This document shows positions 2,725 to 59,993 of a stretch of 64,000 nucleotides of DNA, one piece after another; within the stretch, counting starts at the first letter, position 1; each line of letters opens with the position of its first letter. Both the position numbers and the translations under genes were made by a program. The notes below the pieces were generated by a model. It was given only the letters and a program-made list of their open reading frames with translations, was not told the DNA's origin and did not search any database. The DNA is from Rhodospirillaceae bacterium (GTDB taxonomy: Bacteria > Pseudomonadota > Alphaproteobacteria > MPNO01 > UBA2964): contig PBIN01000015.1 in assembly GCA_002720855.1 (NCBI GenBank), forward strand, positions 124,001 to 188,000. Reading direction: 5' to 3'.

Positions 2725-2729
2725 CGACC

Positions 2730-5236: not shown

Positions 5237-5257
5237 CTTCAAGGCAATTCTCTATTT

Positions 5258-6113: not shown

Positions 6114-6118
6114 ACCAT

Positions 6119-7294: not shown

Positions 7295-7295
7295 A

Positions 7296-8288: not shown

Positions 8289-8289
8289 C

Positions 8290-10599: not shown

Positions 10600-10617
10600 G
10601 GGAATCGATGGTCATAA

Positions 10618-10635
10618 CTAACTTCATAACGTTAG
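10618..10635. promoter_or_regulatory. Inverted repeat CTAAC-N8-GTTAG
   Basis: Perfect 5-bp arms with an 8-base spacer, lying 19 bases upstream of the molybdenum-hydroxylase ATG in the divergent gap with the SDR gene. It is an operator candidate; no regulator gene is nearby. Confidence 0.3.
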
Positions 10636-10646
10636 AACAGCCATAA

Positions 10647-10666
10647 GGGTAGGATCAACGCTACCC
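10647..10666. promoter_or_regulatory. Inverted repeat GGGTAG-N8-CTACCC
   Basis: Perfect 6-bp arms with an 8-base spacer, the same spacer length as the repeat at 10618-10635. On the + strand it is followed by CTTTTTC, so a weak terminator is also possible, although no + strand gene ends here. The rest of this 156-base divergent gap shows no clear promoter. Confidence 0.3.
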
Positions 10667-10755
10667 AAGCCTTTTTCTCACCTCACCGTTTCCAACCAGC
10701 CAAAAAAAGGTCATGATCCGTCCATCTGTTACAACCCAAAGATACGAGAAAGAGA

Positions 10756-11565: not shown

Positions 11566-11571
11566 GGGTAG

Positions 11572-13221: not shown

Positions 13222-13324
13222 CTTATTTTCCTCTCCTTGCTGCAGTGATAGGGGCGTCGTCAGCGATCAACAACTCTTTGTCTTCGCGAGAAAACAGCGA
13301 GAGGATGCCACAAAGCTCGCAATT

Positions 13325-15236: not shown

Positions 15237-15310
15237 CTTCCGACAAACCTCCGCGCATGATACTGCAAACAAGTATCCGACAAGCCGAATGGTTGCAGCG
15301 CCCCGTCATG

Positions 15311-16198: not shown

Positions 16199-16282
16199 AA
16201 TTTGCGCGGCCTCCACTCAACTAGGGATGAGGCCCGCCCCCGAAGGGACGGGCCTCAACGCTTTTCATTACATCCGATCAGT

Positions 16283-17815: not shown

Positions 17816-17858
17816 CTCTGTCTCCCTCCTTCTTTGTAGAACTCAGTGAAAGAAATAT

Positions 17859-30239: not shown

Positions 30240-30422
30240 ATGCCGTCCGATAAAAGTCAGAGATCAACCCTGGGCGGCGAAATTTTCGTCATAAATGTCG
30301 GGTTGGAAAAGTTCGCCGTTGAGTTATCTGAACAGAACGTCCCGGTCATTCAGGTCGATTGGAAGCCTCCTGCCGGAGGCGATACCGAGCTCGCGGCACT
30401 TCTGTCGAAGATGGGCCTCTAA
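30240..30422 (+). CDS. 60-residue stand-alone FdrA/AllG-associated small domain
   Basis: The core is IFVINVGLEKFAVELSEQN followed by VPVIQVDWKPPAGGD. This resembles a short module normally fused to FdrA or YlbE-type proteins (pattern V.N.GLE.F...L..Q...V..VDW.PPA.GD); that family recollection is from memory. Here it is a separate gene with GGAGAAAGACT before the ATG, 17 bases ahead of allG. It probably forms part of the oxamate transcarbamylase complex. It is short enough to be missed by automated annotation. Confidence 0.7.
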   Translation: MPSDKSQRSTLGGEIFVINVGLEKFAVELSEQNVPVIQVDWKPPAGGDTELAALLSKMGL

Positions 30423-30438
30423 AGGCTGGACAATACAA

Positions 30439-31689: not shown

Positions 31690-33179
31690 TGGAATTCACG
31701 CTCAACAAAGTATTGCAAGGATTCTACAAGGATTCAGTCGCTCTCATGCGGCTTTCTCGCGATCTTGTCGCTATGGAAGGCGTCAACGAAGCAGCGCTTA
31801 TGATAGGATCTCCTTCAAATAAACAAATATTACGTGATGCAGGACTACTGGCATCAGAAGGTGACGCGGCTGAAGGCGGCGATCTTGTGGTTGCAATCCG
31901 CGCAAAAGATTCAAAAGCCGCCCACGCCGCCGCGGAGGCCATAGAGCCCCAAATCATGAGCCAAACGCGCGCCAGTGATGATGATATTGACTGGCGGCCA
32001 CAATCGATCCGCAGCGCTGCCAAAGCTAGTCCGGATGCCAACCTCGCCCTGATTTCAGTACCCGGAGAATTTGCTGCCGCTGAAGCCCGCAAGGCATTAA
32101 GCCGTGGGCTGCATGTCATGATGTTTAGTGACAACGTCTCAGTCGAAGATGAAATTGCTTTAAAGATCCAGGCGCGCGAACGAGGGTTGCTAATGATGGG
32201 ACCCGACTGCGGCACTGCAATCCTGGATGGTGTACCCCTGGCGTTTGCAAACAACGTAGCCGGGGGAGAAATAGGAATTGTCGGGGCTTCGGGTACCGGA
32301 ATTCAGGAAGTCACAACGCTGATTTCTAATAATGGTGGCGGCATTTCGCAGGCTATTGGTGTCGGCGGCAGAGACCTCAAAAATGAGGTAGGAGGCATTT
32401 CAACATTGTTGGGAATTGACCGGCTCGATTCTGACCCGTCCACATCTCACATTGTTCTGATTTCAAAACCGCCGGGCGACAGGGTGCTACCAAAGATATT
32501 GGACCGGATAACCGAGAGCTCAAAACCCTTCACAATTTGTTTCATAGGTGCGTCCAATTTCAACGTTCCAGCCAACGCCACGGTTACGCGAACCTTAAAA
32601 GAGGCTGCTCAATCAGCGCTCGGCGGCAAATCAATTGGAAGTGAGATAGTGTCGAAGAATCAGGTTTCTAAAGAAGGAAAACAAATTCGGGGTTTGTATT
32701 CGGGTGGTACGCTCGCAGCGGAGTCTCAGGTTATCCTGCTTGATGCGGGGTTAGAGGTTGCTTCAAATGCCGCTGTGCCGGGTGCGAGCGATCTAAAAAA
32801 CGCGGCTGGGATGCATCAGATTATCGACCTTGGCGACGATCAATATACCCAAGGCCGCCCGCACCCGATGATAGATCCTGAAATTCGGCGGGAGCCGCTA
32901 GAAGAAGCGATGAATAACCCGAATGTTGGCGTCATTTTGATTGATATCGTTATCGGATTCGGTGCGCATCCTGATCCCGCCGGACAACTTGTTTCAATGC
33001 TTGCGGGGACAGATAAGAAGAACCAACCCGAAATCATTGCGTCCATTACGGGAACGGAGCAGGATCCACAAATCCGCTCGACGCAAGTAAAAACCTTGCA
33101 ATCGGCTGGGGTTCACGTTGCAGATTCGAATGCCGATGCGGCAATCGCCGCCCTCCAAATGTTGAGGGTCAACAGCTAA
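31689..33179 (+). CDS. fdrA: FdrA / oxamate carbamoyltransferase subunit AllF-like
   Basis: 496 residues. FdrA resembles a succinyl-CoA synthetase alpha subunit: a CoA-binding-like Rossmann region contains GPDCGTAILDGVPLAFANNV and GIVGASGTGIQEVTTLIS (about residues 180-215), and the C-terminal half has IRGLYSGGTLAAESQ (about 335) and DDQYTQGRPHPMIDP. The N-terminus is EFTLNKVLQGFYKDSVALM, characteristic of FdrA. The ATG shares one base with the allG stop. It is expected to form a complex with AllG and AllH. Confidence 0.9.
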   Translation: MEFTLNKVLQGFYKDSVALMRLSRDLVAMEGVNEAALMIGSPSNKQILRDAGLLASEGDAAEGGDLVVAIRAKDSKAAHAAAEAIEPQIMSQTRASDDDIDWRPQSIRSAAKASPDANLALISVPGEFAAAEARKALSRGLHVMMFSDNVSVEDEIALKIQARERGLLMMGPDCGTAILDGVPLAFANNVAGGEIGIVGASGTGIQEVTTLISNNGGGISQAIGVGGRDLKNEVGGISTLLGIDRLDSDPSTSHIVLISKPPGDRVLPKILDRITESSKPFTICFIGASNFNVPANATVTRTLKEAAQSALGGKSIGSEIVSKNQVSKEGKQIRGLYSGGTLAAESQVILLDAGLEVASNAAVPGASDLKNAAGMHQIIDLGDDQYTQGRPHPMIDPEIRREPLEEAMNNPNVGVILIDIVIGFGAHPDPAGQLVSMLAGTDKKNQPEIIASITGTEQDPQIRSTQVKTLQSAGVHVADSNADAAIAALQMLRVNS

Positions 33180-33191
33180 GGGAGATACGCC

Positions 33192-34160
33192 ATGCCAAAA
33201 GGCGACACGATTCCCACCAAGCTTGTTATTGCAATCGGGGGCAACGCCACTCACCCCGAAGATATTAAAGGCACCTCTAAAGAACAGGAAGAAATAGCTG
33301 CCAAAACCGCAGATGCGTTGCTGCCACTCGCCCAATCGGTTGAACAGTTGATCATTACCCATGGTAACGGTCCTGTTGTCGGAAAAATTTTGATGCGCCA
33401 AGCCCTCACTCGGGATCGTATCGCACCAATGCCCCTCGATATCTGTGTTGCGCATAGCCAGGGCGGTATCGCCTACCTTTTGGTACAGGCCATGGAAAAT
33501 GCCTTGCGAGAGGTTGATGACCCGCGCCACGTCGCCTGCCTACTGACGCAGGTCGAGGTAGATGAAAATGACCCGGCCTTTCAAAACCCAACGAAACCTG
33601 TCGGCCCATTCTTTAGCGAGGAGGATGCAAAATCAGTGCAGGACGAACTAGGCTGGCAGATGGCAGAGGATTCTGGCCGCGGTTGGCGCCATATCGTTCC
33701 TTCCCCAATCCCAAAACATGTCTGTGATATTTCGCTGGTCGAAGTGTTGGCGCAGAGGGGGTCCGTGGTTATCGCGGGCGGCGGCGGCGGCATTCCGGTA
33801 ATTCGCGGTGAAAAAGGGGTCCGGCATGGTGTTTCTGCCGTCGTCGACAAAGACCTCACCTCGGCTCTGATGGCCAATATCCTCGGAATGGACACCTTTA
33901 TGATTCTAACGGCGACGCCGAAGGTCGCGATTAACTTTGGCAAGCCCGATCAGAAGTTTCTCGACCAGGTTACGTTGTCAGATATCAAAGAGTTAAACGT
34001 TGAAGGCCATTTCCCACCTGGCAGTATGGGTCCGAAGATCGATGCAGCGATCCGGTTTCTAGAAAACGGCGGCAAACAGGTCATTATCGCTGATCTCTCC
34101 GAAGCAATGAGTGCACTTCATGGCGACACCGGTACGCGCATCGTTTCCGACGATGGCTGA
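33192..34160 (+). CDS. arcC: Carbamate kinase
   Basis: 322 residues of the amino-acid kinase fold. Motifs are VIAIGGNATHPED (about residues 12-24), ITHGNGPVVG (about 55), VIAGGGGGIPVIRG and DKDLTSALMANIL, with LRE-like substrate contacts between them. It makes ATP from carbamoyl phosphate and ADP, releasing carbamate that decays to ammonia and CO2. In this operon it corresponds to AllK/YbcF of E. coli. AGGGAGATACGCC precedes the ATG, and its stop overlaps the allH start. Confidence 0.93.
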   Translation: MPKGDTIPTKLVIAIGGNATHPEDIKGTSKEQEEIAAKTADALLPLAQSVEQLIITHGNGPVVGKILMRQALTRDRIAPMPLDICVAHSQGGIAYLLVQAMENALREVDDPRHVACLLTQVEVDENDPAFQNPTKPVGPFFSEEDAKSVQDELGWQMAEDSGRGWRHIVPSPIPKHVCDISLVEVLAQRGSVVIAGGGGGIPVIRGEKGVRHGVSAVVDKDLTSALMANILGMDTFMILTATPKVAINFGKPDQKFLDQVTLSDIKELNVEGHFPPGSMGPKIDAAIRFLENGGKQVIIADLSEAMSALHGDTGTRIVSDDG

Positions 34161-35034
34161 CGACTCTGGCGCTCAATCTTTTGCGATCACAGAAGCAGGT
34201 GCGATTGCATTTGATTCAATCAATTTTTCCTCAAAAGGCCGCGTCACCGCCCTTTTCGAACGTAGTTTCTATATTGAAACAGAAGAATGCTGGATGTGTT
34301 TCGGTCCAGATGGTCTTTATCTTGGGCCGTTGAATATCCGTACAAATGCACCGCCGACTATTAATTGGCAGGCAAGTGGCCTATCGGTCGATGATCGGGT
34401 GCGTGCATCATCTTCCGATATTTTTATTGGCAACCGTTTCTCATTTTCATACCGCGATGTGGTCATTTGGCGGCCCGATCCGCCGCCGGTTCTAGAAAAG
34501 GAGAAAATTAGGATCGGGCTTTCCAATATCGCGAACATTGGGACCGAGTTGGCACCATCGGAAGGACTGGCCCCCTATGTGTTCAACACTTCGGACAGAA
34601 GTCACATTCTTTCAAACGCAAAATCTGCAATCGGCAATCTGGAAAAAATATTTCAACGCCAAGATTTTGAGCGTCCTGTTTCGTTGATGATAGGCCTCGG
34701 TCCAGGCCTTACCCCGTCTGGAGATGATTTTCTGGGTGGCATGATGATAACGCTTAAAATTTTAGGAGAAGACAGGCTGCAAGAGGACCTCACGGCGAGA
34801 ATAAAAACCGTCTATTCGGCGACCAATGAAATCAGCCGTGCGCACCTCGACTCTGCCGCGCTGGGTGTGGGCGCTGAACCGCTTCATGCGGCAATCGACT
34901 CTATAATTTCAAATAACGAGACCGAAATGGCAGATGTCTTGAAGCGGGTCAGCGCGATAGGCCATTGTTCGGGATGGGATGCATTGACCGGTGCCGTCGT
35001 TACTTTGCGTGCCTGGTTGGCTCAGGAGTCTTAA
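34153..35034 (+). CDS. allH: Oxamate carbamoyltransferase subunit AllH-like (YlbF, DUF2877)
   Basis: 293 residues. The start ATG at 34153 overlaps the carbamate kinase stop by eight bases; the earlier in-frame ATG at 34111 lies deeper inside arcC and is less likely. The DUF2877 hallmark MIGLGPGLTPSGDDFLGGM appears at about residues 178-196. ISRAHLDSAALGVG and a C-terminal GHCSGWDALTGAVV follow. It is the third subunit of oxamate transcarbamylase. Its stop codon overlaps that of the convergent hpxW-like gene, sharing a TTAA. Confidence 0.88.
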   Translation: MADDSGAQSFAITEAGAIAFDSINFSSKGRVTALFERSFYIETEECWMCFGPDGLYLGPLNIRTNAPPTINWQASGLSVDDRVRASSSDIFIGNRFSFSYRDVVIWRPDPPPVLEKEKIRIGLSNIANIGTELAPSEGLAPYVFNTSDRSHILSNAKSAIGNLEKIFQRQDFERPVSLMIGLGPGLTPSGDDFLGGMMITLKILGEDRLQEDLTARIKTVYSATNEISRAHLDSAALGVGAEPLHAAIDSIISNNETEMADVLKRVSAIGHCSGWDALTGAVVTLRAWLAQES

Positions 35035-36623
35035 AGAGCGTCTGTAACCGCAGAGCCGTCACAACGCGGGTCGGAAGCACCTTCGATTGTTCCACCGGCA
35101 TGCCAAACGATGGCGCCCGCATGGCCCATCATTTCCTCAAAGCCCCCTACCACCTCGAGATCATGGCCAGCTGTACGCAAAGCCTCGATGGTGCCGGTAT
35201 CGAAACGATTCTCAATACGGAGTTTGGCTGTTTCCTCACCCCAAGTCCTACCAAGCAACCAGCGGGGTGCCGCAATTGCTTCCTCCAGGCCTTCTCCGAA
35301 ATCAACATAGCGCGTGAAAATAGCAGCCTGGGTTTGCGGCTGTCCTTCTCCGCCCATGGTGCCATAGACCATTTGCCGCCCATCGTCCAAAACCGCCATG
35401 GCTGGATGGATCGTGTGGAACGGACGGCGCCCCGGGCCTAAAGGGTTGGGATTACTTGTATCCAGACTGAAACTGGTACCCCGATTCTGCCAGACAATTC
35501 CGGTCTCCGGCAGAACCACACCCGACCCAAACTCCCAATAGATGCTTTGAATCATGCTGACAGAACAGCCGTCACTATCGATCGCCCCGAGCCACACTGT
35601 ATCACCGGGTGGGCCCGCCTCGGGCCAAGATGAGGCATGCTTCGGGTCAATCTCGTTGGACAATGTTTCCAGGGTTTCATCAGAAAGGAAATTGAATGGA
35701 TCGACAGTCATATAATTCGGGTCTGAAACATATTGATCACGAATTCGAAATGCCTTTTTGCTCGCTTCAACAATTGAGTGAACGTGCTCAAAACCCTCAG
35801 CTTCTTTCACCCCCAGCCTGTCCCACATCCCTAGAATCATCATCGACGCCAGTCCCTGGGTCGGTGGCGGCATTGTGTAAGCAACGCCGCTCTTCAATTT
35901 GACCGACAATGGCTCAACCGTAAGAGCGGCGTGCTCGGCTAAATCGACCAAGCGAAGCGGGCTACCGACCGATTCCAAATCCTTGACCAGCGATCGGGCA
36001 ATGTCCCCGCAATAAAAATCATCCAAACCTGATAGGGTCAGTTGCTCCAAAGTATCCGCTAAAGTTGGAAATACGATGTCGCTCCCTTCGGCATAAGGGG
36101 ATTTATCGGTCAAAAAAATCTCCGAGAAACCAGGCACATTCGAAAGTTCATCGAATTTGGCAACCGAATTTCTATGTAACGTTCCTGACACTGGCGTGCC
36201 ATGCTTTGCTTGTTGAATGGCATCTTCAAACAAGCGTCTTAAGGGCAGCTTGCCACCCCGCCGTTTGCTTTCTTCCAATGCCAACTGCCAACCCGAAACC
36301 GCACCGGCAACCGTTAGCGCTGCCATCGGGCCTCTCGATGGAATTTCTTCCAAACCGAGATCACGGTAGAAATCAATGCTGGCCAGCTTTGCGGCTGCAC
36401 CGCAGGCATCAATCGCTAAAGGTTTACCGCCGTCTCCAATCAGGAAAAAATTATCTCCGCCCAGGGAATTCATATGCGGATAGACCACGACGATTGAGGC
36501 CGCAGCGGCAATCATAGCCTCGATGGCATTCCCGCCTTCACTGAGCACGCGAGCGCCAGCTTCCGCCGCAAGAAAATGCGGCGCAACCACAATGCCACCG
36601 GACTCGGTGCGAGCATACTTCAT
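35031..36623 (-). CDS. hpxW: Gamma-glutamyltransferase-family Ntn hydrolase, probable oxamate amidohydrolase (HpxW-like)
   Basis: 530 residues. The processing and nucleophile threonine is T342 in PPGDTVWLGAIDSDG, followed by SMIQSIYWEFGSGVVLPETG and a C-terminal MVYGTMGGEGQPQ. These match the GGT fold, a precursor that cuts itself before the threonine. There is no evident signal peptide, whereas true GGTs are exported. From memory, HpxW of Klebsiella is a GGT homologue of similar size that hydrolyses oxamate to oxalate and ammonia. Its position next to the oxamate-forming operon makes that the best call. It is transcribed with gpt. Confidence 0.78.
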   Translation of the reverse strand: MKYARTESGGIVVAPHFLAAEAGARVLSEGGNAIEAMIAAAASIVVVYPHMNSLGGDNFFLIGDGGKPLAIDACGAAAKLASIDFYRDLGLEEIPSRGPMAALTVAGAVSGWQLALEESKRRGGKLPLRRLFEDAIQQAKHGTPVSGTLHRNSVAKFDELSNVPGFSEIFLTDKSPYAEGSDIVFPTLADTLEQLTLSGLDDFYCGDIARSLVKDLESVGSPLRLVDLAEHAALTVEPLSVKLKSGVAYTMPPPTQGLASMMILGMWDRLGVKEAEGFEHVHSIVEASKKAFRIRDQYVSDPNYMTVDPFNFLSDETLETLSNEIDPKHASSWPEAGPPGDTVWLGAIDSDGCSVSMIQSIYWEFGSGVVLPETGIVWQNRGTSFSLDTSNPNPLGPGRRPFHTIHPAMAVLDDGRQMVYGTMGGEGQPQTQAAIFTRYVDFGEGLEEAIAAPRWLLGRTWGEETAKLRIENRFDTGTIEALRTAGHDLEVVGGFEEMMGHAGAIVWHAGGTIEGASDPRCDGSAVTDAL

Positions 36624-48191: not shown

Positions 48192-48794
48192 CTAAGAAAG
48201 GGGAATTTCGTTATCTTCTTTTGACGATTGATATTCATCGGAAAGCTCGGCGTATGTACTTTCCAGTTTTGTAATACGTTCCAAAAGTGCGGCCCGTTTG
48301 TCTGGTCCTGATTTCTCCGCTGCTTCACGCAAATCATGACACTTCCAAAACTCATTCTCGCGAGCATAGGCACCGCCTTCGATCCGAAACACCTGCTGCA
48401 GAATCTTCAAATCGTGCGGGATGTTAAAACGATCAGCCGTGTCGGTATAACCGAACAGGTAATAGAAGTTGTCGAAACCCGTCCAGGTTATTGCAGACAA
48501 ACAAAGCGAACAGGGCTCGTGTGTAGCAAGAAAGAGGCAATTTTTGGGGTCAGGCCGATCAACAGCCGCGAGCTCATAGAACTTTTTGAGGGCGTGGACC
48601 TCTCCATGCCAAAGCGGATTCTCAATCTCATTGTTGGTTTCAGCGATGACGACCGACAAGTCTTCCTTTCTTAGGATTGCCGCACCGAACAGCTTGTTAC
48701 CCGCGGCAACGCCTTTCTTCGTCTTGGGAACAATGTCTTGTTCAATGACTTCAAGAAGGCGGTCTATAAGCTCGCTGTCAGCAGATTCACTCAG
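48192..48794 (-). CDS. Cytidine/guanine deaminase-like zinc enzyme with probable CTG start
   Basis: 200 residues if started at CTG 48794. This CTG overlaps the ubiD TGA (CTGA) exactly as an ATGA overlap would, and has GGGG eight bases upstream. The only other usual start is a TTG at 48659, but that would cut off KKGVAAGNKLFGAAILRKED, which matches the first strand of the deaminase fold (G..PFGA.I). The zinc site is H63-G-E65 (WHGEVHAL) and C95/C98 (EPCSLC). HGE replaces the usual HAE. The tail after residue 150 is acidic and helical. The substrate is unknown. Confidence 0.75.
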   Translation of the reverse strand: MSESADSELIDRLLEVIEQDIVPKTKKGVAAGNKLFGAAILRKEDLSVVIAETNNEIENPLWHGEVHALKKFYELAAVDRPDPKNCLFLATHEPCSLCLSAITWTGFDNFYYLFGYTDTADRFNIPHDLKILQQVFRIEGGAYARENEFWKCHDLREAAEKSGPDKRAALLERITKLESTYAELSDEYQSSKEDNEIPLS

Positions 48795-50176
48795 AGCTCA
48801 ATCCCCGCCGAGCGAATAATTTTTTGAACACGGCTCCGCTGCTCATCCGAAATCGTCAGTCGTTCTGCAAAGTCACGGCCTGTCGGTTTGGTAGCATCAA
48901 TGCCGACTTTCGTTACTGTGTGATTTTCGGGGTCTGAGGTTGGGTCAAGAATCGCGCCCATCGCACCATGAATATAGGTGACGTCCTGATCAGCCCGTGT
49001 GCGGGTTATGACCGCCCACATAACATCGGACAGGTTGAATAAATCGACATCTTCATCAACAACGATCACCGTCTTTACATAAAACTCGGTGCCTAGAGCC
49101 GCCATGATCGCCTGTTTGGGTTGGCCTTCGGCGGTCTTTTTCATCTGAACAATCGCCATCAAGGCACCAACGGTACATAACGGCACATGCACCGCACTAA
49201 CATTAGGCAAATTGCGCCGCAGGGCGTTCAAGATTTCGGCTTCTCGGCTGATCGATGAAACCAGAATGTGGTCACCCGCGGTCCCGGATGCGACACTGTG
49301 AAATATCGCATCGCTCCTCATCTGGATGCGCTTGGCAACAAAAACGTTTTCAGTGGATCGATATGATGCGTAGCCCGTAAATTCGCCAAACGGCCCTTCT
49401 GCTTCACGTGTCTCAGCCAATATCTCGCCTTCGATCACAATCTCCGCTCCGGCAGGTATTGAGAGATCGTTCGTTTGGCAGGTCGCAACACGGTAAGGTT
49501 CGCCGAATAACGCACCAATAATTTCGTATTTTCGGACGTTAGGCGGATAGTGATACGCCATTGACCCCATATAGTGGATGGGATGAATGCCGATCGTAAT
49601 CGCCGCAGGCAATGCTTCGCCTTTCGCTTCGGCCCGCCGATGGAATTCATACATTCTGCGCCGCGAATGAAGCGACAGGCCAAGCTTGTTTTTACCCTTG
49701 AGCATCAGACGGTGAAAACCAACTGTATCTGTCTCACCGTCGGGATCCCTTGCCGTGATTTGTCCTGCCGTAATGTACGGTGCTGCATCAACATGAAAAT
49801 GTAACGGGATCGGCAATATCGTCAGATCGACGTCATCACCTTCAATGACGACGTCCTGCCACGGCGCGTCACCAACCACTTCAACAGGTTGATAGTTCTG
49901 ACAACGTTCGCGGTAGGCCAACGGCAAGTCATCTGGAGACACACCGACTGCAGCGGCCAATAGTTGACGGTTACCTGCCGTATTCGTCACCACAGGGTTT
50001 TCAAAACCTTCAACATCCTCAAATAGGAGCACGGGACTCTTGCCATTTCGCTCAAACTCGAACACCGATGACGTAATGTCGAGTTCTCGGCGTACAGGAG
50101 TGGACACACGCACAAAGTCGCTTGGAAAATTATTTTCCACCATTTCGAGGAAGCCACGCAGGCTTTGATCGGTCAT
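48791..50176 (-). CDS. UbiD-family prenylated-FMN decarboxylase
   Basis: 461 residues from the ATG at 50176; the frame runs on to 50239 without a better start. UbiD residues are visible: the arginine in TVGFHRLMLK (R156) and the glutamates E260 and E265 in EGPFGEFTGY. The C-terminal half includes TYIHGAMGAILDPTSDP. Members decarboxylate aromatic, heteroaromatic or unsaturated acids reversibly and need prFMN from UbiX, which is not in the window. It is coupled to the deaminase and upstream of the nucleobase permease, suggesting a heterocyclic carboxylate as substrate. Confidence 0.87.
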   Translation of the reverse strand: MTDQSLRGFLEMVENNFPSDFVRVSTPVRRELDITSSVFEFERNGKSPVLLFEDVEGFENPVVTNTAGNRQLLAAAVGVSPDDLPLAYRERCQNYQPVEVVGDAPWQDVVIEGDDVDLTILPIPLHFHVDAAPYITAGQITARDPDGETDTVGFHRLMLKGKNKLGLSLHSRRRMYEFHRRAEAKGEALPAAITIGIHPIHYMGSMAYHYPPNVRKYEIIGALFGEPYRVATCQTNDLSIPAGAEIVIEGEILAETREAEGPFGEFTGYASYRSTENVFVAKRIQMRSDAIFHSVASGTAGDHILVSSISREAEILNALRRNLPNVSAVHVPLCTVGALMAIVQMKKTAEGQPKQAIMAALGTEFYVKTVIVVDEDVDLFNLSDVMWAVITRTRADQDVTYIHGAMGAILDPTSDPENHTVTKVGIDATKPTGRDFAERLTISDEQRSRVQKIIRSAGIEL

Positions 50177-50229
50177 TGTTGTCTCTCTGTGCAATGTTTT
50201 AATTTTATGCTGCAGCGAGAGTAGCGGAG

Positions 50230-50250
50230 CCCGTGACAACTGTCATCGGG
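50230..50250. promoter_or_regulatory. Inverted repeat TGACA-AC-TGTCA upstream of ubiD
   Basis: A perfect TGACAACTGTCA (50234-50245) is extended by CCCG and CGGG arms with a single bulged T. It lies 58 bases upstream of the ubiD start and 17 bases past the hybrid kinase stop. There is no T-run, so an operator is more likely than a terminator. Confidence 0.4.
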
Positions 50251-50266: not shown

Positions 50267-53200
50267 TTAGTCGTTCGTTCCGTCTAACAATCCGTCGATG
50301 TCACCGATCAATGAATCAAGCTGTTGTTTGGCGTCTTCTGTCAAAGGTTTCTTCCCATCTTCAGGATCAACGGCTGCAACTGAAGGAGTCTGATCGATGT
50401 CGGGTAAGACGATATCACTTCGTCTAACAATCGCGCTTATAAGCTCGCGTTGATCAATAGGTTTTGAAACATAGTCATCCATACCCGATCCAAGATAGTT
50501 TTCGCGATCGCCCTGCATAGCGTTGGCGGTCATCGCAATGATTGGAATTTCTGAAATTTTGTTAGGCAGTGATCTAATTCGTTTGGTCGCTTCGACGCCA
50601 TCCATTTGTGGCATTTGGATATCCATGAGAACGAGATCGTAATTTGATCGCGTAACAGCGGCGACGGCTTCCAGTCCGTTTTGGACAATATCATATTGGC
50701 AATCGACCGGTGCCAACATCGAGGAGATTACTTTCTGATTGATTGAATTATCTTCGGCAATGAGGATACGGAGTTTTTTGTTACTCGGAACACTTGAGAC
50801 GTGATCATCGATTTCTAATGTTTGATTGAACGTTGCCGACTTTGCATCGCCTCTTTCGGCAACAACGGTAAACCAGAAAGTAGAACCTCTCCCTGGAGCG
50901 TTTTCTACCCCGATTTCCCCTCCGAACATTTCCACGAGATTCTTGCTAATCGTAAGCCCAAGGCCTGTTCCGCCATATTGACGCGTCGTTGAGCTATCGG
51001 CTTGTGAAAAAGGATTAAAGAGATTTTCGATCTGGTCTTCGTCAATTCCAATTCCTGTATCGTGAACTTCAAATTTTAGACCAACCTGGTCATCCTCCCG
51101 CGCGAGTTCAAGAACACGCACTTCGACACTGCCTTCATGAGTAAACTTGATCGCATTTCCAACAAGGTTATTGATGATCTGTCGCAATCGACCCGGATCA
51201 CTTCGAATTGAATCGCCATCCTTTACGTCATTTCGGATCGAAAACTGGATCCCTTTCTCGCTCGCGGGATGTCTCCAAAGCCCATCTGCGGCTGCAAGGA
51301 TACTGGCAACTGAGACGTCCAACATCTCAAGTTCTATCCGACCGGCTTCGATCTTCGAAAGATCCAATATGTCATTCAATAAGTCGAGTAGCGAATTTCC
51401 TGACTCCCGAATTGTTCGAACGTAATCTCGCTGTTCTTCATTTAGATTCGTTTGCGACAAGACATCTGCCATCCCCAGTACACCATTCATCGGTGTCCTA
51501 ATTTCATGGCTCATTGTTGCAACAAATCTTGACTTTGTTCGGTTTGCAGACTCAGCCTGCTGCGCCGCCATTGCGGATTGGCGTGCGGATTCCTCCGCCT
51601 GATTACGAGCCTCAAGGAGTTCGGTCTCCCGACGACGCAATGCCGTAACGTCTGTATTAATCCCACCGATGCCAAGCACCTCCCTGTTAGCGCCCATGAT
51701 CGGAAATTTAGTGATTATGAATTCCGCTGTTTCACCCTCGTGGGACGCCACTGAAAGTTCTGAAGAGGTCGCTTTCCCCGATTCCATTACCTTTCGATCG
51801 AGCGATTCGACACGCTGTCTCTCAGCTTCATCGAAGCTTGAGCCGCCCCGAGAACCAATCATTGTCGTATCTTTTACACCGTGGAATTCAAGATATTTCG
51901 TATTCACCATGGTCAGAGTGTGATCAGGCGCTTTCATATACATGATTGATGGCGAATTATCGAAAAACGCCCGAAATCTTGCATCGCTGTCCCGCAACGA
52001 AGCCTCTGCGACATGCCGTTGCCGGATATTGTTGGTCAATACGAGAATAAGAACCAGCTGAAGTGCAAAAACAAGGATTCCCGCGACAACCCAATGCGCA
52101 TATTCATTGAGAATTGTTTTCGGCGCATTGATAATTTTAGCGTCTCTTGGAAGCGCAGTTTTATTTAAGTTAAAACGGGCCAGTTCGTTATGGTCGAACA
52201 GGTATAGGTTCGGGCTTTCTTCAGTCACCATAAGGGTATCGGATGGCGTGCCAGTCAGGATTTTAAAAGCCAGCGCGGCTGCGGCTCTGCCCTGTTCGAA
52301 ATGACTGACGATTTTGCCACCGAGGGCACCATAACCTATTGGCGCCTTCTGCACGGAAAATACAGGGCCGGCATATACTTCCTTAAACCGTGCGGAAAAC
52401 GCTTTCCATTCGAGATGCGCACCAGCCACGTCTCGATGGGTAGAATTTAGAAAAACTGCGGAATCTGGAGAAATTTGATTAAAACGATCAAAGAGCTGCT
52501 GATAAGTCAGTTTCGCCAATGAATGCTTCACAACCCGCAAACCGGCATGATCATGTACAGCAACATCAAACAAGCGATCGTTTATTCTTCCTGTCGGCGT
52601 ATCGTCACCAATCACGTGTAGCGTTGTCGTCTTTGGGAACAATTTTTTAACGAGATCAAGTGTTTTGCCAACAGATCGGCGCTCAACGACACCAACAATA
52701 TTTGGATTGTCATTTTGTTTCATCGCGAATGAAACATTGTTCACCCCTAGAAACACGATTTTGGAACCGTCAAAGAGCGTGTTTTGCCTGTCGCGAGCAA
52801 AGTTCAAGGCGTTGTCATCCGCCGTAACGACAAGATCATAAGGTCGCAACTTGCTGAACTTTGTAGCCAGGTCAGCTTCCAGCGCTTTAGCGCGTAACTT
52901 TAAAGGAAATCTTTTGCTGTCCAGAAACTCAACATCAAATACATATCCTCGCTCAGGAAGACCCCGCTCTTGTAGCCCCTTCTTTAAGCCATTTATCTGA
53001 TCATAAAAGGAGTGAAATGAGGGACTGTAGGACGCGATAAAGAGGATACGTTTCTTGGCGGTCGCAGCACTTTTCGTTTGAGCGTTAGCGCCAAATGCCA
53101 AAATTGAAAGTATGAAAAGAGCCGCAAATCCGATTTGGCTAAAAAGCCCCGTTATCGAACGGGTTGGCTTGCTTTCACGCGGCCGTCGCGGACTAAACAC
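50267..53200 (-). CDS. Hybrid sensor histidine kinase with periplasmic ABC-substrate-binding-like sensor
   Basis: 977 residues from a GTG at 53200, preceded by AAGGAAAATTGG. Layout: signal anchor (about 18-40); an extracytoplasmic ABC_sub_bind-like sensor (50-345) starting [19 protein letters not shown]; a membrane helix (369-390); a PAS domain (405-520); a coiled coil (522-560); HisKA with H565 in [10 protein letters not shown]; HATPase with [10 protein letters not shown] (679-687), DTGIGI (714-719) and GTGLGL; and a receiver with phospho-acceptor D860 in [12 protein letters not shown] final tail follows REC. No HPt or separate output protein is encoded nearby. Confidence 0.92.
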
Positions 53201-53344: not shown

Positions 53345-55084
53345 CTATTTTCGGCTATCGTCAACGGCGGCCTGTTCAGCTTGCCGCATTCCTTCAATTA
53401 ATTGCCGCGCCGCAGAGTCGGGAACACCAGTAGCCGTCAAAACAAGTTCACTTAGCTTGAGGCTGGCTTCCGTCGTTTCGGGCACGACGTGATCCGCGCC
53501 CGAGCTTACAAGCTGGGTCGCATGATCGATATCTCTCGCTCGGGCGAATATTGTAAGGTTGGGCCAATGTCGATGAGCAGCCGTAACAACATGCTGGGCA
53601 GCTTGCGGGCTGTCCATCGTAACAACTAAAGCTGCCGCATTCTCGACACCCAATTTCCGCAGCATGTCGGGCTTACTTGCATCACCCAGGTAAATACTGC
53701 CGCCGTCGTTTCTAAACTGTGTAACCACGCCGGCATCAATATCGATACCGATATGCATCTGTTGTTGTGTTTCCAGAACGCTGCCAAGCAGCTGTCCAAC
53801 CCGACCATAGCCTACGATTATAGTGTGACCGGAGATTTGTTCAGGAACATCATGAATGGATTGATTGGCACTGATTTGCCTTGCTTCGACAACACGGGCA
53901 AGCCACCGAGCCAGTTGTGCAACGGGTGGCGTCGCCATCATGGTCAAAGCGGTGACGACAATCATAAATTGGGATGTTTCTGGTGACAGCAGCCCACCGG
54001 CAAGAGCCAGCGCGACGATTACAAAGGCAAACTCACCGGCCTGACCCAGCAAAAGAGCCAGTTCAAGAGCGACTGCGCGCGGCTCCCGGAATGTTCTTGC
54101 CAGCGTATAGAGGACGAGACCTTTGATCAGAAACAATCCGATTGCTGATCCAATTAATAGTAAAGGGGAAGCTGCGAGCGCAGCGAGGTCCACGGACATA
54201 CCAACCGACATAAAAAACAGTCCGAGTAGCAGCCCTTTGAACGGCTCAATATCAACTTCGATTTCATGGCGATACTCCGTTTCAGCCAGCAGCAGACCGG
54301 CCAGAAATGCGCCGAGCGCCATCGATAACCCTGCCTTTTCCGTTGCCAGTGCTGTACCCATGATCACTAGCAGAACAAGGCCGAGAAACATTTCACGACG
54401 TGCAAAATTTCCAATGAATCGAAATAGCGGACGAATTATCAGGCGGCCTGCCACAAGAATAATCGCGATGGCAGCCAGAGCCTGTCCCATCGCCCATGCA
54501 AATCCTTCGGAAACAGAACCATGAGACTCAGATGCCAGGGCGCCAACCAGGAACAGTACGGGCAAGACCGCCAGGTCCTGAAATAGCAAAACAGAAAATC
54601 CGGTTCGCCCCACCCGTGTACCGAGCCGTCGGTTGTCCGTCAGGACCTGCATAACTATCGCTGTTGAGGATAAAGCAAAACCCGCACCTAAAACGATGGA
54701 CGCTGACAGGCTGTTATTAAAGAGATACGCAATTACCGCGATAACAACGCCTGTAAGTATTACCTGCGTGCCACCGAGTCCGAACACCAGGTTCCGCATC
54801 GCCCAAAGTCGGGCCGTAGATAGTTCGAGCCCAATCATAAAAAGAAGAAATACGATTCCGAGTTCTGCCAGCGCCCGAACGCCATCAACATCGGAAATGA
54901 CCATGATACCGATCCATGGAACCACGTCGTCCAGCTGAGCCAACCCGTAGGGGCCGATTAACAATCCAACACCCAGAAAACCGAGGACCGGGCTAATTTT
55001 TATGCGATGAACAAGAGGCACCACAATTCCTGCGGCGACGAGAAAAATTATTACTTCGCGAAGTTCAAGTGCATGCAATGTCAT
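53345..55084 (-). CDS. KefB/KefC-like CPA2 cation:proton antiporter with RCK domain
   Basis: 579 residues. About 12 hydrophobic helices occupy residues 8-385, including IKISPVLGFLGVGLLIGPYG near residue 30 and the core motif LGAGFALSSTAIVMQVL (about 134). A TrkA-N/RCK Rossmann domain begins near residue 419 (HTIIVGYGRVGQLLG) and binds NAD or a related ligand. It exchanges K+ or Na+ for protons across the inner membrane. The ATG lies three bases after the DUF1116 stop, so it shares a transcript with the molybdenum hydroxylase and DUF1116 genes. Confidence 0.92.
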   Translation of the reverse strand: MTLHALELREVIIFLVAAGIVVPLVHRIKISPVLGFLGVGLLIGPYGLAQLDDVVPWIGIMVISDVDGVRALAELGIVFLLFMIGLELSTARLWAMRNLVFGLGGTQVILTGVVIAVIAYLFNNSLSASIVLGAGFALSSTAIVMQVLTDNRRLGTRVGRTGFSVLLFQDLAVLPVLFLVGALASESHGSVSEGFAWAMGQALAAIAIILVAGRLIIRPLFRFIGNFARREMFLGLVLLVIMGTALATEKAGLSMALGAFLAGLLLAETEYRHEIEVDIEPFKGLLLGLFFMSVGMSVDLAALAASPLLLIGSAIGLFLIKGLVLYTLARTFREPRAVALELALLLGQAGEFAFVIVALALAGGLLSPETSQFMIVVTALTMMATPPVAQLARWLARVVEARQISANQSIHDVPEQISGHTIIVGYGRVGQLLGSVLETQQQMHIGIDIDAGVVTQFRNDGGSIYLGDASKPDMLRKLGVENAAALVVTMDSPQAAQHVVTAAHRHWPNLTIFARARDIDHATQLVSSGADHVVPETTEASLKLSELVLTATGVPDSAARQLIEGMRQAEQAAVDDSRK

Positions 55085-55087
55085 CTT

Positions 55088-56284
55088 TTAAACTACCGCG
55101 TCGCAGGCTGCTGCAAACGGGGCAATGGGTGGTCGGTAAATTCCGGCTCCTAACCCACCATTCACTCCGTATTTGTCAGCAATACCAAGCTCGACAATGG
55201 GGGTGGAATTCTCTTCTACAACCGCCTGCGCCGATAGTCCGACGCGCGCCCTGCTTTTTGTCATTCCGGGATGTGTAGCCAGGAGGATTTTTTCAGGCAG
55301 TTCGAAAATGTCATCCGGCGTAAAACCGGCGTGGAGGGCTTGCATATCGGGGCAATAACTTTGCGCCATTGCCCCCAAACCAAGTCCCTCAGCAACGGCA
55401 CTATCTCCGAAAGCTCCAACGCATGTGTGAACAGTATGCGGTTCACGAATATTTCCTAATGGAGCGCTTGCCGGGCAGGTGAACCACTTCCCTGGTAGTC
55501 CGGCAACTTGCAGCCCAAATTCGTCACCATTGCCGCCAAATGCTGTAATGATTGTACTATGATCGGTTCCAATCGCGCTGGACAGGATAAGTTTCGATGC
55601 CGCCATCCAGAAATTCAGATGAAAAAACGGCCATTTTCCGATAAAGGCGCTGGTTTCTGATCCCGCGAATTCAGCATCTAACCGGTCGTGGATTATAGTC
55701 ACTAACAATTTATGCGCTTCAATGTGCCGCAAATGGCCATCGTCGCCTCGGGTCAATGCTTCATCGATTATTGGGAGCCATTGAATTGGGTCGTCTACGG
55801 GCACCGTGGATATGTCTTCTGCTACAGTGTTATTGAGAAACTGCAAGAACTCGAGCGCTGCTTCACTTTTATAGCCATACCTAGGGACCGGATCAGCCCC
55901 CGTACCGCCGCCATTTAGCGGCGCCCAGGCTCGATGCTCCGGTACATTGAGATCGACAAATTCGGTCAACCGCATTGAAGGTGAAACGACTGCAGCCATC
56001 GGCGTCACGACGCTCCAATCCTGCGCCGGTTCAAATTGAATCTCACCGTCAGCGATGAGCCTATCGGCATCTGACAGCGTAGATGCCCAGCCTTCGAAAA
56101 CACAGGCTACTGCAGCTGAGTTCAAAATGGGTGTTATCAAATTGTGTGACGGTTCTGCGGGCGGCCCGCAATGCAATAGCGTGCGATCAGAAAGACCAAA
56201 TGCTTCGGATGCTGTAACGACGCGCCGCCAAGCAGGAACTACGGAGAGCATTTTTTTGACTGCACGCCTGTCTACATCGATCAT
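55088..56284 (-). CDS. Second DUF1116 (AllG/YlbE-like) protein, without FdrA or AllH partners
   Basis: 398 residues. It aligns by eye with the AllG-like product at 30439-31689: TLLHCGPPAEPSHNLITPIL versus MILHAGPPITWDRMCGPMQ, VACVFEGWAS versus IIVFEGWAK, a central GDEFGLQVAGLPGKWFTCPA versus GTEFGIRVSGTGDEWFTAPV, and PIVELGIADKYGVNGGLGAG versus PTINTGIAHREPGVGQVGAG. It is about 18 residues shorter and clearly diverged. Its ATG overlaps the molybdenum-hydroxylase stop (ATGA). No FdrA, DUF2877 or carbamate kinase gene lies near it, so its partners and reaction are unknown. Confidence 0.82.
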   Translation of the reverse strand: MIDVDRRAVKKMLSVVPAWRRVVTASEAFGLSDRTLLHCGPPAEPSHNLITPILNSAAVACVFEGWASTLSDADRLIADGEIQFEPAQDWSVVTPMAAVVSPSMRLTEFVDLNVPEHRAWAPLNGGGTGADPVPRYGYKSEAALEFLQFLNNTVAEDISTVPVDDPIQWLPIIDEALTRGDDGHLRHIEAHKLLVTIIHDRLDAEFAGSETSAFIGKWPFFHLNFWMAASKLILSSAIGTDHSTIITAFGGNGDEFGLQVAGLPGKWFTCPASAPLGNIREPHTVHTCVGAFGDSAVAEGLGLGAMAQSYCPDMQALHAGFTPDDIFELPEKILLATHPGMTKSRARVGLSAQAVVEENSTPIVELGIADKYGVNGGLGAGIYRPPIAPFAAACDAVV

Positions 56285-58632
56285 TCTCTGTTCTCCGCGC
56301 CTTTGATCAAGTCAAACAAACGGCTCGGTGACATCGGAAGGCGGTCAACAACCACCCCTATGTCCTTGAAAGCATCGTTTACTGCATTCGCGATTGCGGC
56401 AGGCGGTCCAATAGCACCTCCCTCGCCCAAGCCTTTTTGACCAAATACTGAAAATGGCGATGGCGTTTCCATGTGGTCAATTTCAACGTTCGGCATTTCA
56501 CAAGCGCTTGGTAGTAGGTATTCCGCCAGTGTGTTGGCCATTGGCTGCCCGTTTTCGTCATACGGCATTTCTTCAAACAGTGCCGTTCCAATACCCTGAG
56601 CGGTGCCACCGACAACCTGTCCATCAACTACCATCGGATTGATCAAAACGCCGCCATCTTCGACGATAACATAGTCCAGAATCTCGACGTCGCCGATCTC
56701 GGGATCAACCGCGACCACGCAACCATGCGCGGCGTAGGAAAACGTTCCGCTATCAGGGTCTGGCCGGTACCCTTCGGTAATTTCAAGCCCGTTTGCCGCA
56801 AGTGCAGGCGGCAAGTCCTGTGGTGCTTTGTACCAGGTCCTTGCGATGTCTGAGATTGCTACTTCTCCAGAAGCCGATCTCACCGCGCCAGCTGACAGAG
56901 ACACATCACCCAATTCCGACTGCAAGAGATAAGCCCCAATTCGCAGAATCCGGTCAGCCAGTGTTTTACAACTTTCAGAGACCGCGCCTCCCGCCATGAC
57001 CGCGCACCGAGAGCCCCAGGTACCCGTTGAATAGGGCGTGTATCCGGTGTCACCATGAACGACTTTCACAACGTTGGTATTGATCGTCAAAACTTCGGCA
57101 GCGATTTGCGCCAAAGTCGTTTCAAGACTTTGACCGTGCGACTGCACCCCGACACGGATCTCAAGTCCGCCGTCGGGCGTTAGACGGATCGCGGCTTGTT
57201 CATAGCCCGGAACCATTGGTATGCCCCATCCAGAATAAACCGAGGTCCCATGGGCAGCTTGTTCACAAAATATCGACAAGCCGACGCCAATGCGTCTTCC
57301 ATCAGCCTCCCCTGCCGCCTGCCGCGCGCGCACCGCCGAGACGTCGATCGCTTTCGCAACGCGCTTCATACACCCCGGATAATCTCCGGAATCGAAGAGT
57401 TTCTTGGTTACATTGGTAAATGGCATCTTCTCGGGATGCGGCAAATTCTTGATCCGCATCTCATGAGGCTCAATGCCTAGTTGCCGGGCCAGCGGGTCAA
57501 TCAGGGTTTCAAGTGCGAAGCAAACGCCGGTTCTGGCGACACCGCGATACGGCAATATGGGCGGCTTATTTGTAGCAGATGACCAGGTACGGCAGCGAAA
57601 TCCGGGAAAATCATAGGGTCCCGGCAATATGCTGGCTATTTGTGCCGCTTCCAGACAGGCGGAAAAGGGATAAGCCGAGTATGCACCGGCATCAACTGTT
57701 GCCTCGCATTCAACCGCCAGCAATTTCCCGTCAGCCGCTGCATAGGCAGTAATCTCGTAATAATGTTCTCGGCAATTGGCATTGGCGCTAAGTTGTTCAC
57801 GCCTGTCTTCTATCCAGCAAACCGGTTGCCCCATCCGAATGGCCATCCACGACAGGGCGACTTCCTCCGCCAGTAAAATTCCCTTATACCCGAACCCACC
57901 GCCAACATCGGGGGCGACAATGCGCACCTGGCCTTCGTCGAGGCCAAGACATTCGGCGAGACCTGTTCTCACAATATGCGGCATCTGGGTGGCGCTTGTG
58001 AGCGTCAGCAACTCCAGCCGCTTGTCCCATTCGGCGACGACGCCGCGCCCTTCAATCGGCGCCATCGACTGGCGTGCCGTCTGGAATGTACGCGTCACCG
58101 TGGCTGCTGCCTGCTGTTTTAACGCTTCTATATCCGCATCAGCTTCGATAAAGGTTTCCAGAAAGACGTTGTCATCCCACTCATCGTGAACCAGCGGCGC
58201 GTTTTCTTCGCGAGCTTGGACCATGTCGGAAACGACCGGTAATGGATCGATTTCAACGTCGACCTGACTGGCCAGATCCTCGGCCTCACCGCGTGTATCA
58301 GCAACACAGGCAGCAATCATTTCACCCACATAGCGAACCTTTTCATTCGCAAAAATGGGCTGCAAAGACGATTTAAATCCGGGCAATCCCGAATCGGCAC
58401 GTATCGGTGAAACACCCACCAAATCGCCAGCGACGAAAACATCCTGTTCTCGTCCTACTGGTTTGGTGACCCTTATATGTCGTCCATGCGCCACAGGACT
58501 TCGGACAAAAGCGACCTCGCGCATACCGAACCGTTTGATATCGGCCACGAATTCTCCGCGTCCGCGCAAGTAACGTTCGTCTTCCTTGCGGATAACAGAT
58601 TTACCTACACCACCGGTCGCAATCGGTTTCAT
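56281..58632 (-). CDS. Molybdenum hydroxylase large subunit (CoxL/XdhB type), orphan
   Basis: 783 residues from the ATG at 58632, which has AGGG six bases upstream; the longer frame to 58722 is not needed. It starts GVGKSVIRKEDERYLRGRG, the hammerhead domain. Cofactor motifs are VGGGFGYKGILLAEEVAL, PYRGVARTGVCFALE, SHGQSLETTLAQIAAEVL and GQKGLGEGGAIGPPAAIANA, with the catalytic glutamate in GEGG. There is no adjacent FAD or Fe-S subunit. It is coupled to the DUF1116 gene and divergent from the cyclic amidohydrolase, suggesting oxidation of an N-heterocycle whose ring is then opened. Confidence 0.88.
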   Translation of the reverse strand: MKPIATGGVGKSVIRKEDERYLRGRGEFVADIKRFGMREVAFVRSPVAHGRHIRVTKPVGREQDVFVAGDLVGVSPIRADSGLPGFKSSLQPIFANEKVRYVGEMIAACVADTRGEAEDLASQVDVEIDPLPVVSDMVQAREENAPLVHDEWDDNVFLETFIEADADIEALKQQAAATVTRTFQTARQSMAPIEGRGVVAEWDKRLELLTLTSATQMPHIVRTGLAECLGLDEGQVRIVAPDVGGGFGYKGILLAEEVALSWMAIRMGQPVCWIEDRREQLSANANCREHYYEITAYAAADGKLLAVECEATVDAGAYSAYPFSACLEAAQIASILPGPYDFPGFRCRTWSSATNKPPILPYRGVARTGVCFALETLIDPLARQLGIEPHEMRIKNLPHPEKMPFTNVTKKLFDSGDYPGCMKRVAKAIDVSAVRARQAAGEADGRRIGVGLSIFCEQAAHGTSVYSGWGIPMVPGYEQAAIRLTPDGGLEIRVGVQSHGQSLETTLAQIAAEVLTINTNVVKVVHGDTGYTPYSTGTWGSRCAVMAGGAVSESCKTLADRILRIGAYLLQSELGDVSLSAGAVRSASGEVAISDIARTWYKAPQDLPPALAANGLEITEGYRPDPDSGTFSYAAHGCVVAVDPEIGDVEILDYVIVEDGGVLINPMVVDGQVVGGTAQGIGTALFEEMPYDENGQPMANTLAEYLLPSACEMPNVEIDHMETPSPFSVFGQKGLGEGGAIGPPAAIANAVNDAFKDIGVVVDRLPMSPSRLFDLIKGAENRE

Positions 58633-58703: not shown

Positions 58704-58742
58704 TTGTCATCACCGCGTGCAATGCACTGCTCGGAGGTAAAT

Positions 58743-59993
58743 ATGGCAGACCAGTATGATCTTGTAATTAAAGGCGGACGCGTGATCGATCCGGCCAACA
58801 ATTTGGACGGCCCGAATGACGTCGGCATAAAAGATGGCAAGATTGCTGCTGTCGCGCAAAACCTTGATGCTAACAGTGCCCAAACCATTGATGCCTCAGG
58901 GAAACTCGTTATCCCTGGCATGATCGACACGCATGCACATGTATTCGAACATGTCAGCGGGCGTTTCGGCATGAACCCTGATCTCGTGGGCGTACGATCA
59001 GGCGTTACCACGGTGATCGATCAGGGCGGACCAAGTTGCATGACGTTTCCCGGTTTCCGAAATTTTATCGCCAAGCCAGCCACAACAAATGTATTGGCGT
59101 TCATATCCATATACACGGTGGGCGGCCTGGAGGGCCATTACTACCCGTATCTATATGGTCCAGGTGGTATCGATGTTGAGGCGTGTTCAAGAGCCGCCGC
59201 CGCCAACACAGACATCGTTAAAGGTATCAAAGCACACGCCGAGCCGGGCGGTATTTCTCGTTGGGGCTTGGAAACTCTCAAGATGGCGAAAGAGGCATCA
59301 CGTGAGGCTGGTATCCCGGTCTACATTCATCTCGGCGAACTTTGGCCGGTTGAGGGCGACGTTGAAATCGACATGGATGCGCGCTTGCCTGAGATTGTCG
59401 CGCTGATCGAAGAAGGCGATATCCTGGCCCACCCCTTCACCCGCCACCCTGGGGGATTTGTGAATAGTGAGGGCAAATTGCATCCGATCGTCAATGAGGC
59501 GATCGATAAGGGGGTTCTCATAGATATCGGCCACGGATCGCACTTCAGTTTTGATATGGCTCGAGCGGTGCTGGACGCGGGAGTCCTGCCGACGACCGTT
59601 GGCGCGGATATGCATGGTTATAACACGCATGTTCCGGCCGAAGCAGGTACTCCGGAAGATCATCCGGACGATGAAATGCATTTGTTTGCCGGCCAGGCCC
59701 AGTTCAGCATGTGTCATGCCATGACTGAGCTCATGGCAATGGGTGTTTCTATGGAAGATACAATCCCAATGGTCAGCTCCCACTGCGCGGAAATGATCGG
59801 CATGGAACAAGAGCTCGGCACATTGGGAATTGGGCGCGTTGCCGACATTTCAGTATTACACGACGAAACCGGCGAATGGACCTTGCATGACAATAGCGGG
59901 GTCGAGGTAAAAACGGAGCGCCGACTCCGACCGGCCTTTTGTATACGCGCAGGCGAATACTTCGAGGCCGACGCGCCAATTCTGCCTGTCTAG
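58743..59993 (+). CDS. Cyclic amidohydrolase/deacetylase (EF_0837/Atu3266-like family)
   Basis: 416 residues from the ATG at 58743, preceded by GGAGGTAAAT. Metal ligands read H64 and H66 (IDTHAHVFEH), a lysine in DIVKGIKAHAEPGG (K160 or K163, the carbamylated position), H196 (VYIHLGE), H230 (ILAHPFTRHPGGF) and D289 (VGADMHGYNTH). The family resembles dihydroorotase and is annotated as amidohydrolase/deacetylase. Its divergence from a molybdenum hydroxylase and DUF1116 suggests it opens the oxidised ring or removes an acyl or carbamoyl group. Confidence 0.83.
   Translation: MADQYDLVIKGGRVIDPANNLDGPNDVGIKDGKIAAVAQNLDANSAQTIDASGKLVIPGMIDTHAHVFEHVSGRFGMNPDLVGVRSGVTTVIDQGGPSCMTFPGFRNFIAKPATTNVLAFISIYTVGGLEGHYYPYLYGPGGIDVEACSRAAAANTDIVKGIKAHAEPGGISRWGLETLKMAKEASREAGIPVYIHLGELWPVEGDVEIDMDARLPEIVALIEEGDILAHPFTRHPGGFVNSEGKLHPIVNEAIDKGVLIDIGHGSHFSFDMARAVLDAGVLPTTVGADMHGYNTHVPAEAGTPEDHPDDEMHLFAGQAQFSMCHAMTELMAMGVSMEDTIPMVSSHCAEMIGMEQELGTLGIGRVADISVLHDETGEWTLHDNSGVEVKTERRLRPAFCIRAGEYFEADAPILPV

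Follow-up and report, generated by a model that had tools for sequence, protein, structure and literature searches.

A stretch of 64,000 nucleotides from a Rhodospirillaceae bacterium (GCA_002720855.1, contig PBIN01000015.1, positions 124,001 to 188,000; hereafter the window) raises the question of what a DUF1116 protein does away from the partners of its family. Three genes follow one another on the minus strand: a molybdenum hydroxylase large subunit (MoCoL, 56281-58632; PF20256 2e-72, PF02738 5e-62, PF01315, with GGGFG and GLGEGG motifs), a free-standing, AllG-like DUF1116 protein of 398 aa ("AllG2", 55088-56284; PF06545 1.3e-47, 162.6 bits against a cut-off of 27), and a KefB/C-like CPA2 cation:proton antiporter (53345-55084; Na_H_Exchanger PF00999 7e-58, TrkA_N PF02254 6.5e-24). 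Domain searches and coordinates confirmed this arrangement as originally predicted, including its spacing: the DUF1116 ATG and the MoCoL TGA share four bases (ATGA, 56281-56284), and the antiporter ATG lies three bases past the DUF1116 stop. Also as predicted, no AllF, AllH, or carbamate kinase adjoins the set, nor does an FAD or 2Fe-2S subunit; AllF and AllH lie 20-22 kb off. In E. coli, the oxamic transcarbamylase (OXTCase) requires all three subunits, AllF, AllG, and AllH (PMC11326118).

On balance, we lean towards the view that the hydroxylase and the DUF1116 protein catalyze two steps of one catabolic module, in which an N-heterocycle is oxidized and an amide-type C-N bond is then cleaved.

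Neighbourhoods of free-standing DUF1116 genes

A class-wide search gave three near relatives in other genomes, and their alignment led to 70 loci from 84,980 species genomes, with further relatives on plasmids recovered by tblastn. Contigs were scanned with two short peptide patterns, so that the list of relatives is incomplete, and neighbourhoods were built from homology-supported gene calls that were labelled by means of reference proteins. When loci were collapsed at 80% identity, 53 groups remained, and within ~8 kb a ring hydroxylase (molybdenum or Rieske) was present in 42, an amide hydrolase in 34, and both in 30. In 20 control stretches matched in size and drawn from the complete chromosomes of five carriers, the corresponding counts were 1, 0, and 0 (Fisher p = 5.5e-9, 1.6e-7, and 2.2e-6, respectively); the groups are related by descent, and these p values show only that the association exceeds background. 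The gene set is not unique to this genome: dozens of other bacteria carry a free-standing DUF1116 with genes for ring oxidation and amide hydrolysis. That the gene products act in one pathway is a strong inference.

The order of the genes varies around a common theme. In loci of the window type, an amidohydrolase/deacetylase-family metallohydrolase gene (AmdHyd) diverges from MoCoL-DUF1116-UbiD; in the window itself it lies on the plus strand at 58743-59993 (ORF 58704-59993; NF006689 410 bits against a cut-off of 371), with GGAGGT preceding the ATG at 58743 and its start ~110 bases from that of MoCoL. The gammaproteobacterial locus L048 has AmdHyd diverging from L-M-S-DUF1116, Paraburkholderia has AmdHyd-L-M-S-hypothetical-DUF1116, and Caballeronia has AmdHyd-L-M-S-SRPBCC-DUF1116-HpxZ-amidase, so that AmdHyd adjoins MoCoL-DUF1116 in the window type, the gammaproteobacteria, and the Burkholderiaceae. 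Azospirillum carries L-M-S-SRPBCC-amidase-HpxZ-MarR-DUF1116, and Pacificitalea DUF1116-L-M-S with a divergent AmdHyd alongside. The amidase and HpxZ partners in Caballeronia and Azospirillum are AtzE-like and AtzH-like, respectively.

The stop/start overlap with MoCoL, which spans four to eight bases in the window type, could also point to a non-catalytic helper, in which DUF1116 would assist the hydroxylase as a subunit for assembly or substrate channelling, with the overlap keeping the two proteins at equal amounts. Yet the same family sits beside unrelated Rieske oxygenases in 30 of the 53 groups, DUF1116 is upstream of MoCoL in Pacificitalea and several genes away from it in Azospirillum, and MoCoL orthologs exist without DUF1116 in Methylobacterium and Sinorhizobium. 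We regard a helper role as improbable.

The Rieske loci form a second, larger branch, in which DUF1116 is accompanied by a Rieske oxygenase, an amidase, one or two copies of a 209-aa protein, and often an aldehyde dehydrogenase (ALDH), sometimes with sarcosine-oxidase-like mgd genes nearby. In SAR116, Ruegeria, and Marinobacter, whose operons read Rieske-(ADC-like)-DUF1116-amidase and frequently include ALDH and lie by mgd, DUF1116 again stands between a ring oxygenase and an amidase, but the Rieske oxygenase takes the place of the window's molybdenum enzyme. This branch may belong to the homarine pathway, a lead that comes from the mgd genes, ALDH, and amidase in the neighbourhood, and a hom gene might then correspond to this DUF1116. 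The 209-aa family (L095:9320-9949, L103:10728-11986, and ~45 relatives) precedes DUF1116 in Rieske-type operons, singly or as two copies, and is not in the window. It has no Pfam family, a profile search of solved structures was empty, and Foldseek gave no match at E < 0.001; in the VIA comparison of its model, the top rows were all acetoacetate-decarboxylase-like (ADC-like), with borderline Z of 8.0-8.9 and an rmsd of 4.6-5.2 over 151-158 residues.

The DUF1116 protein and its independence from AllF and AllH

The genome has two DUF1116 genes, and the second was predicted to be a diverged AllG copy that starts inside the hydroxylase stop. It is 30% identical to the window's canonical AllG, in keeping with that description, and in a tree of 97 proteins (midpoint rooted, with L106 as a long branch) a 100/100 branch splits orphan DUF1116 from AllF-linked AllG, with the window copy on the orphan side. 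Its own clade first branches to L048 and L049, and molybdenum-linked members appear at three places in the tree, namely Azospirillum and Paraburkholderia, both near the base, and the window clade. The shortened N-terminus relative to the window AllG is only apparent: the AllG start codon is called long, and relatives are 416-417 aa. Phage records with DUF1116 are few, unannotated, and 28-29% identical.

Thirty-eight columns are near-invariant in both the AllG and orphan groups, and those common to both include H38, E64, N124, R135, D181, H184, R186, N224, N252, W267, D294, and S295 (window numbering). Residues conserved across the whole family are therefore kept in this clade, and a loss of active-site residues throughout it was not found. 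At 18 AllG-conserved columns, 70-100% of orphans carry another residue (a gap at one); H139, E175, E230, D271, R303, R311, D343, and H430 (AllG numbering) differ in 79-99% of the orphan clade, with changes such as H139 to Q, R303 to G, R311 to Q, D343 to A, and H430 to D. An AlphaFold2 model of the window protein (pLDDT 95.5) matches 3clq, a DUF1116 protein of Enterococcus faecalis, with a TM of 0.91 and a VIA Z of 55 (2.0 Å over 393 residues), at 27-28% identity. Structure searches with this model found no neighbour other than 3clq, and since this sole match has no assigned function and no indicated activity, the fold gives no mechanistic hint.

The gene could in principle be a relic, that is, a decaying AllG duplicate of no importance carried along by the operon. 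DUF1116 does diverge faster than MoCoL and UbiD (68-77% versus 78-95% identity), as a relic would. Its coding evolution is nonetheless purifying, with nonsynonymous divergence (pN) of 0.15-0.20 against saturated synonymous divergence (pS), a saturation that blocked dN/dS for most pairs; moreover, the family-wide core is kept across alpha-, beta-, and gammaproteobacteria, and the synteny is deep. We find a relic scarcely credible.

Could the protein instead work with AllF and AllH borrowed from the operon 20 kb away, as the original prediction proposed alongside a new use of the fold? Here DUF1116 would replace AllG in the AllF-AllH complex and yield a transcarbamylase with another substrate. 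Both partners exist in the window genus, and in L038 the two kinds of DUF1116 operon stand side by side. However, 36 of 50 carrier genomes lack the AllH family. These include the complete chromosomes of L061, L071, L078, and L084 and the molybdenum-type Azospirillum genomes of L089 and L098, each of which has a single DUF1116; many loci come from metagenome-assembled genomes, where a missing gene may mean a missing contig. Borrowing is thus impossible in genomes that lack AllH and cannot be the general mode. The replacement of charged and polar AllG-conserved positions speaks against it as well, as does the fact that carbamate kinase does not travel with free-standing DUF1116. We consider borrowing very unlikely.

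A single DUF1116 gene is present in 31 of the 50 carrier genomes, and none of the 53 orphan groups has its own AllF or AllH, only L038 having them in a neighbouring operon. In that locus (1477-13762), two UbiD genes separate the free-standing module from an adjoining canonical AllG-AllF-AllK-AllH operon. These comparisons of gene content, with the separate clade, support the other half of the original proposal, namely that the DUF1116 fold is used outside the AllFGH transcarbamylase.

A different possibility is that DUF1116 alone transfers the carbamoyl group of a ureido product to phosphate, retaining the chemistry of AllG. The family-wide polar core is retained, and HpxZ/AtzE-type ureide amidases lie nearby in Azospirillum and Caballeronia, both of which would suit a free-standing transcarbamylase. 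Against it, the E. coli enzyme needs all three subunits (PMC11326118), AllK is found beside orphan copies only through the neighbouring operon of L038, and two AllG-conserved arginines are lost. Such an activity seems unlikely, though a little less so than a helper role.

The proposed reactions and a proposed source of the missing subunits

In the two-step module that we favour, the first step would fall to MoCoL, which has the features of a xanthine-oxidase-family large subunit (MoCoBD_1, MoCoBD_2, the a/b hammerhead, and the GGGFG and GxGEGG motifs). Its closest solved chain is quinoline 2-oxidoreductase (1t3q, 7e-141), a three-subunit N-heterocycle molybdenum hydroxylase with the same large-subunit domains and motifs; unlike that enzyme, the window MoCoL has no FAD or 2Fe-2S subunit of its own beside it and is linked to DUF1116. 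The protein is 60-66% identical to the DUF1116-linked large subunits of Azospirillum, Burkholderiaceae (Caballeronia, Paraburkholderia), Pacificitalea, and gammaproteobacteria, and the next large-subunit class in the plasmid collection reaches at most 53%. These orthologs come with complete L-M-S subunit sets, as in L048, L104, L106, and L154. Separately, a Variovorax relative (49%) adjoins a 2,5-dihydroxypyridine dioxygenase and an isochorismatase-family gene, in a set that looks like pyridine degradation.

Methylobacterium and Geminicoccaceae have an orthologous AmdHyd-L-M-S operon that lacks DUF1116 and carries an alpha/beta hydrolase between AmdHyd and L. This replacement in two lineages suggests that DUF1116 may perform a hydrolytic step. 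As for the alpha/beta hydrolase, the solved chains that matched it best were "Lipase 1" and a putative esterase, and kynurenine formamidase came third (1.5e-13); a candidate assignment as arylformamidase was rejected, and we claim nothing narrower than a putative ester/amide hydrolase.

In outline, MoCoL would act like quinoline 2-oxidoreductase, hydroxylating the ring at a carbon adjacent to nitrogen to give a lactam, and amide bonds would be cut by AmdHyd, or by amidases in other species. The resulting N-acyl or ring-opened compound would pass to the free-standing DUF1116, most likely a hydrolase or an enzyme of acyl transfer, which would need neither AllF nor AllH and would not be an oxamate transcarbamylase. 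N-acyl or amide chemistry would fit the neighbours of DUF1116, which are amidases, AtzE/HpxZ-type amidases, amidohydrolases, and D-aminoacylase-like proteins, as well as the alpha/beta hydrolase that can stand in its place. A hydrolase or acyl-transfer step for DUF1116 specifically is a plausible candidate, although we would put it below even chances.

Several observations weigh against this interpretation. The reference proteins used for labelling were taken from the same loci as those labelled, and some branches (L041-L047, L050, and L060) have neither a molybdenum nor a Rieske enzyme nearby. Free-standing DUF1116 proteins are not known to have any activity, and 3clq, the one solved structure that was found, has no assigned function. 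The window genus does have AllF and AllH, and gene content there would allow occasional cooperation. UbiD is nearly invariant and could belong to a different pathway. Finally, the alpha/beta hydrolase replacement is known from two lineages, and Sinorhizobium orthologs show neither gene. In a third clade context, L043 and L055 (~4000-19000) hold a DUF1116 ~60% identical to the window's with no ring hydroxylase; its neighbours there are a CitE-like lyase gene, an acyl-CoA ligase-like gene, and mgd-like genes.

If MoCoL has no partners beside it, where would its electron-transfer subunits come from? The original prediction called the hydroxylase an orphan, which holds for its surroundings, but as an oddity it does not stand out: the whole genome encodes 35 large subunits against 11 FAD and 12 2Fe-2S subunits. 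Similar ratios of large to FAD subunits are seen across the order, such as 43 to 13 in G210 and 58 to 21 in G349. Across the order, genomes hold 22-58 molybdenum hydroxylase large subunits, of which about two thirds lack FAD partners. Another large subunit, 37% identical to the first, lies within the window at 8290-10599 and likewise has no FAD subunit match nearby.

Contig C7 of the genome carries a coxG-S-M-D-E-F cluster without coxL (L143, G000:C7:128000-147900, at 5885-11349). The L-less arrangement is conserved in G210, G344, G104, and G350, at 89-96% identity in the genus and 59-84% in G104 and G350, with S and M 93-96% identical within the genus; in G349 and G351, L still lies between S and M. 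That S and M were retained once L had been lost makes most sense if they work with other large subunits, and the L-less cluster probably serves the orphans. We hold with moderate confidence that MoCoL shares this cluster, which would supply its FAD and 2Fe-2S subunits and maturation factors. We can propose only tentatively the broader picture, in which DUF1116 would represent a new class of single-protein amide, lactam, or N-formyl hydrolase or acyl transferase acting after molybdenum or Rieske ring oxidation in many Proteobacteria, and dozens of orphan large subunits in this order would share one CoxS-CoxM-CoxG-CoxDEF set.

Other genes of the window and significance of the module

The antiporter was originally thought to add an ion-transport link. 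It occurs only in L033, L034, and L036, the window's closest relatives, wedged between DUF1116 and UbiD, and is missing from L035 and L037-L040, whose DUF1116 is 67-76% identical. In L036 the gene is interrupted by a pair of ORFs on the reverse strand, which look like the two parts of an IS3-type transposase. A special ion-transport link thus finds no backing, and the antiporter is best explained as a recent, lineage-specific passenger rather than a conserved partner. The window protein shares the CPA2 and TrkA_N domains of the glutathione-gated K+ efflux systems KefB/KefC, but its 469 and 472 bits fall under the NCBIfam equivalog cut-offs of 804 and 752. The order of the predicted three-gene operon stands; as a unit, it misses AmdHyd and UbiD, which are better conserved partners than the antiporter.

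Downstream of the antiporter lie, on the minus strand, a hybrid sensor histidine kinase (50267-53200; HisKA, HATPase_c, Response_reg, and an ABC_sub_bind-type sensor domain), which varies among relatives, the UbiD-family decarboxylase (48791-50239; PF01977 6e-59; closest solved chains 6h6x/6h6v, 1e-74), and a small ORF (48192-48659) that is deaminase-like by eye and has relatives kept in L033 and L034; a xanthine/uracil-type permease follows. UbiD is 87-95% identical in all window-type loci and directly follows DUF1116 where the antiporter is missing. UbiD decarboxylases number 22-37 per genome in most of the order, with 36 here, and 0-3 in four genomes outside it. Literature on the UbiD and molybdenum expansion and on HpxZ yielded nothing touching this system. 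Purine-degradation genes adjoining window-type loci may be linked to the module or may reflect shared ancestry alone. Promoter and terminator scans of the window gave near-chance results.

The canonical allGFKH operon, which served as the comparison set, lies on the plus strand at 30295-35034 and comprises AllG (30295-31689, PF06545 1.2e-89), AllF (31689-33179, PF00549/PF02629), AllK (33192-34160, PF00696), and AllH (34111-35034, PF11392 1.2e-23). Beside allH is a gamma-glutamyltransferase-family gene (35031-36623), which we take to be a candidate oxamate amidohydrolase (HpxW-like) that could consume oxamate. The Azospirillum DUF1116 locus L104 also holds a gamma-glutamyltransferase gene.

Compared with AllG (YlbE) of the E. 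coli AllFGH complex (PMC11326118), the window protein shares the fold, PF06545, and core residues, but it lacks AllF, AllH, and AllK, belongs to a separate 100/100 clade with AllG-type charged residues replaced, and sits with ring hydroxylases and amide hydrolases. The openly accessible literature naming DUF1116 contained no experiment on a free-standing form and gave the family a role solely within the three-subunit transcarbamylase of the allantoin pathway, although a protein of the Rieske branch may already have been named in work on the homarine pathway. With a conserved clade that lacks the other two subunits, the function of the fold can be tested directly in a single protein. For annotation, a DUF1116 without AllF and AllH should not be named oxamate carbamoyltransferase, as the current Pfam name implies. 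The L-less cox cluster would explain, simply and in a way open to testing, how about two dozen orphan molybdenum hydroxylases can be kept in one genome, and the module as a whole would mark an uncharacterised route of N-heterocycle breakdown in marine and soil bacteria.

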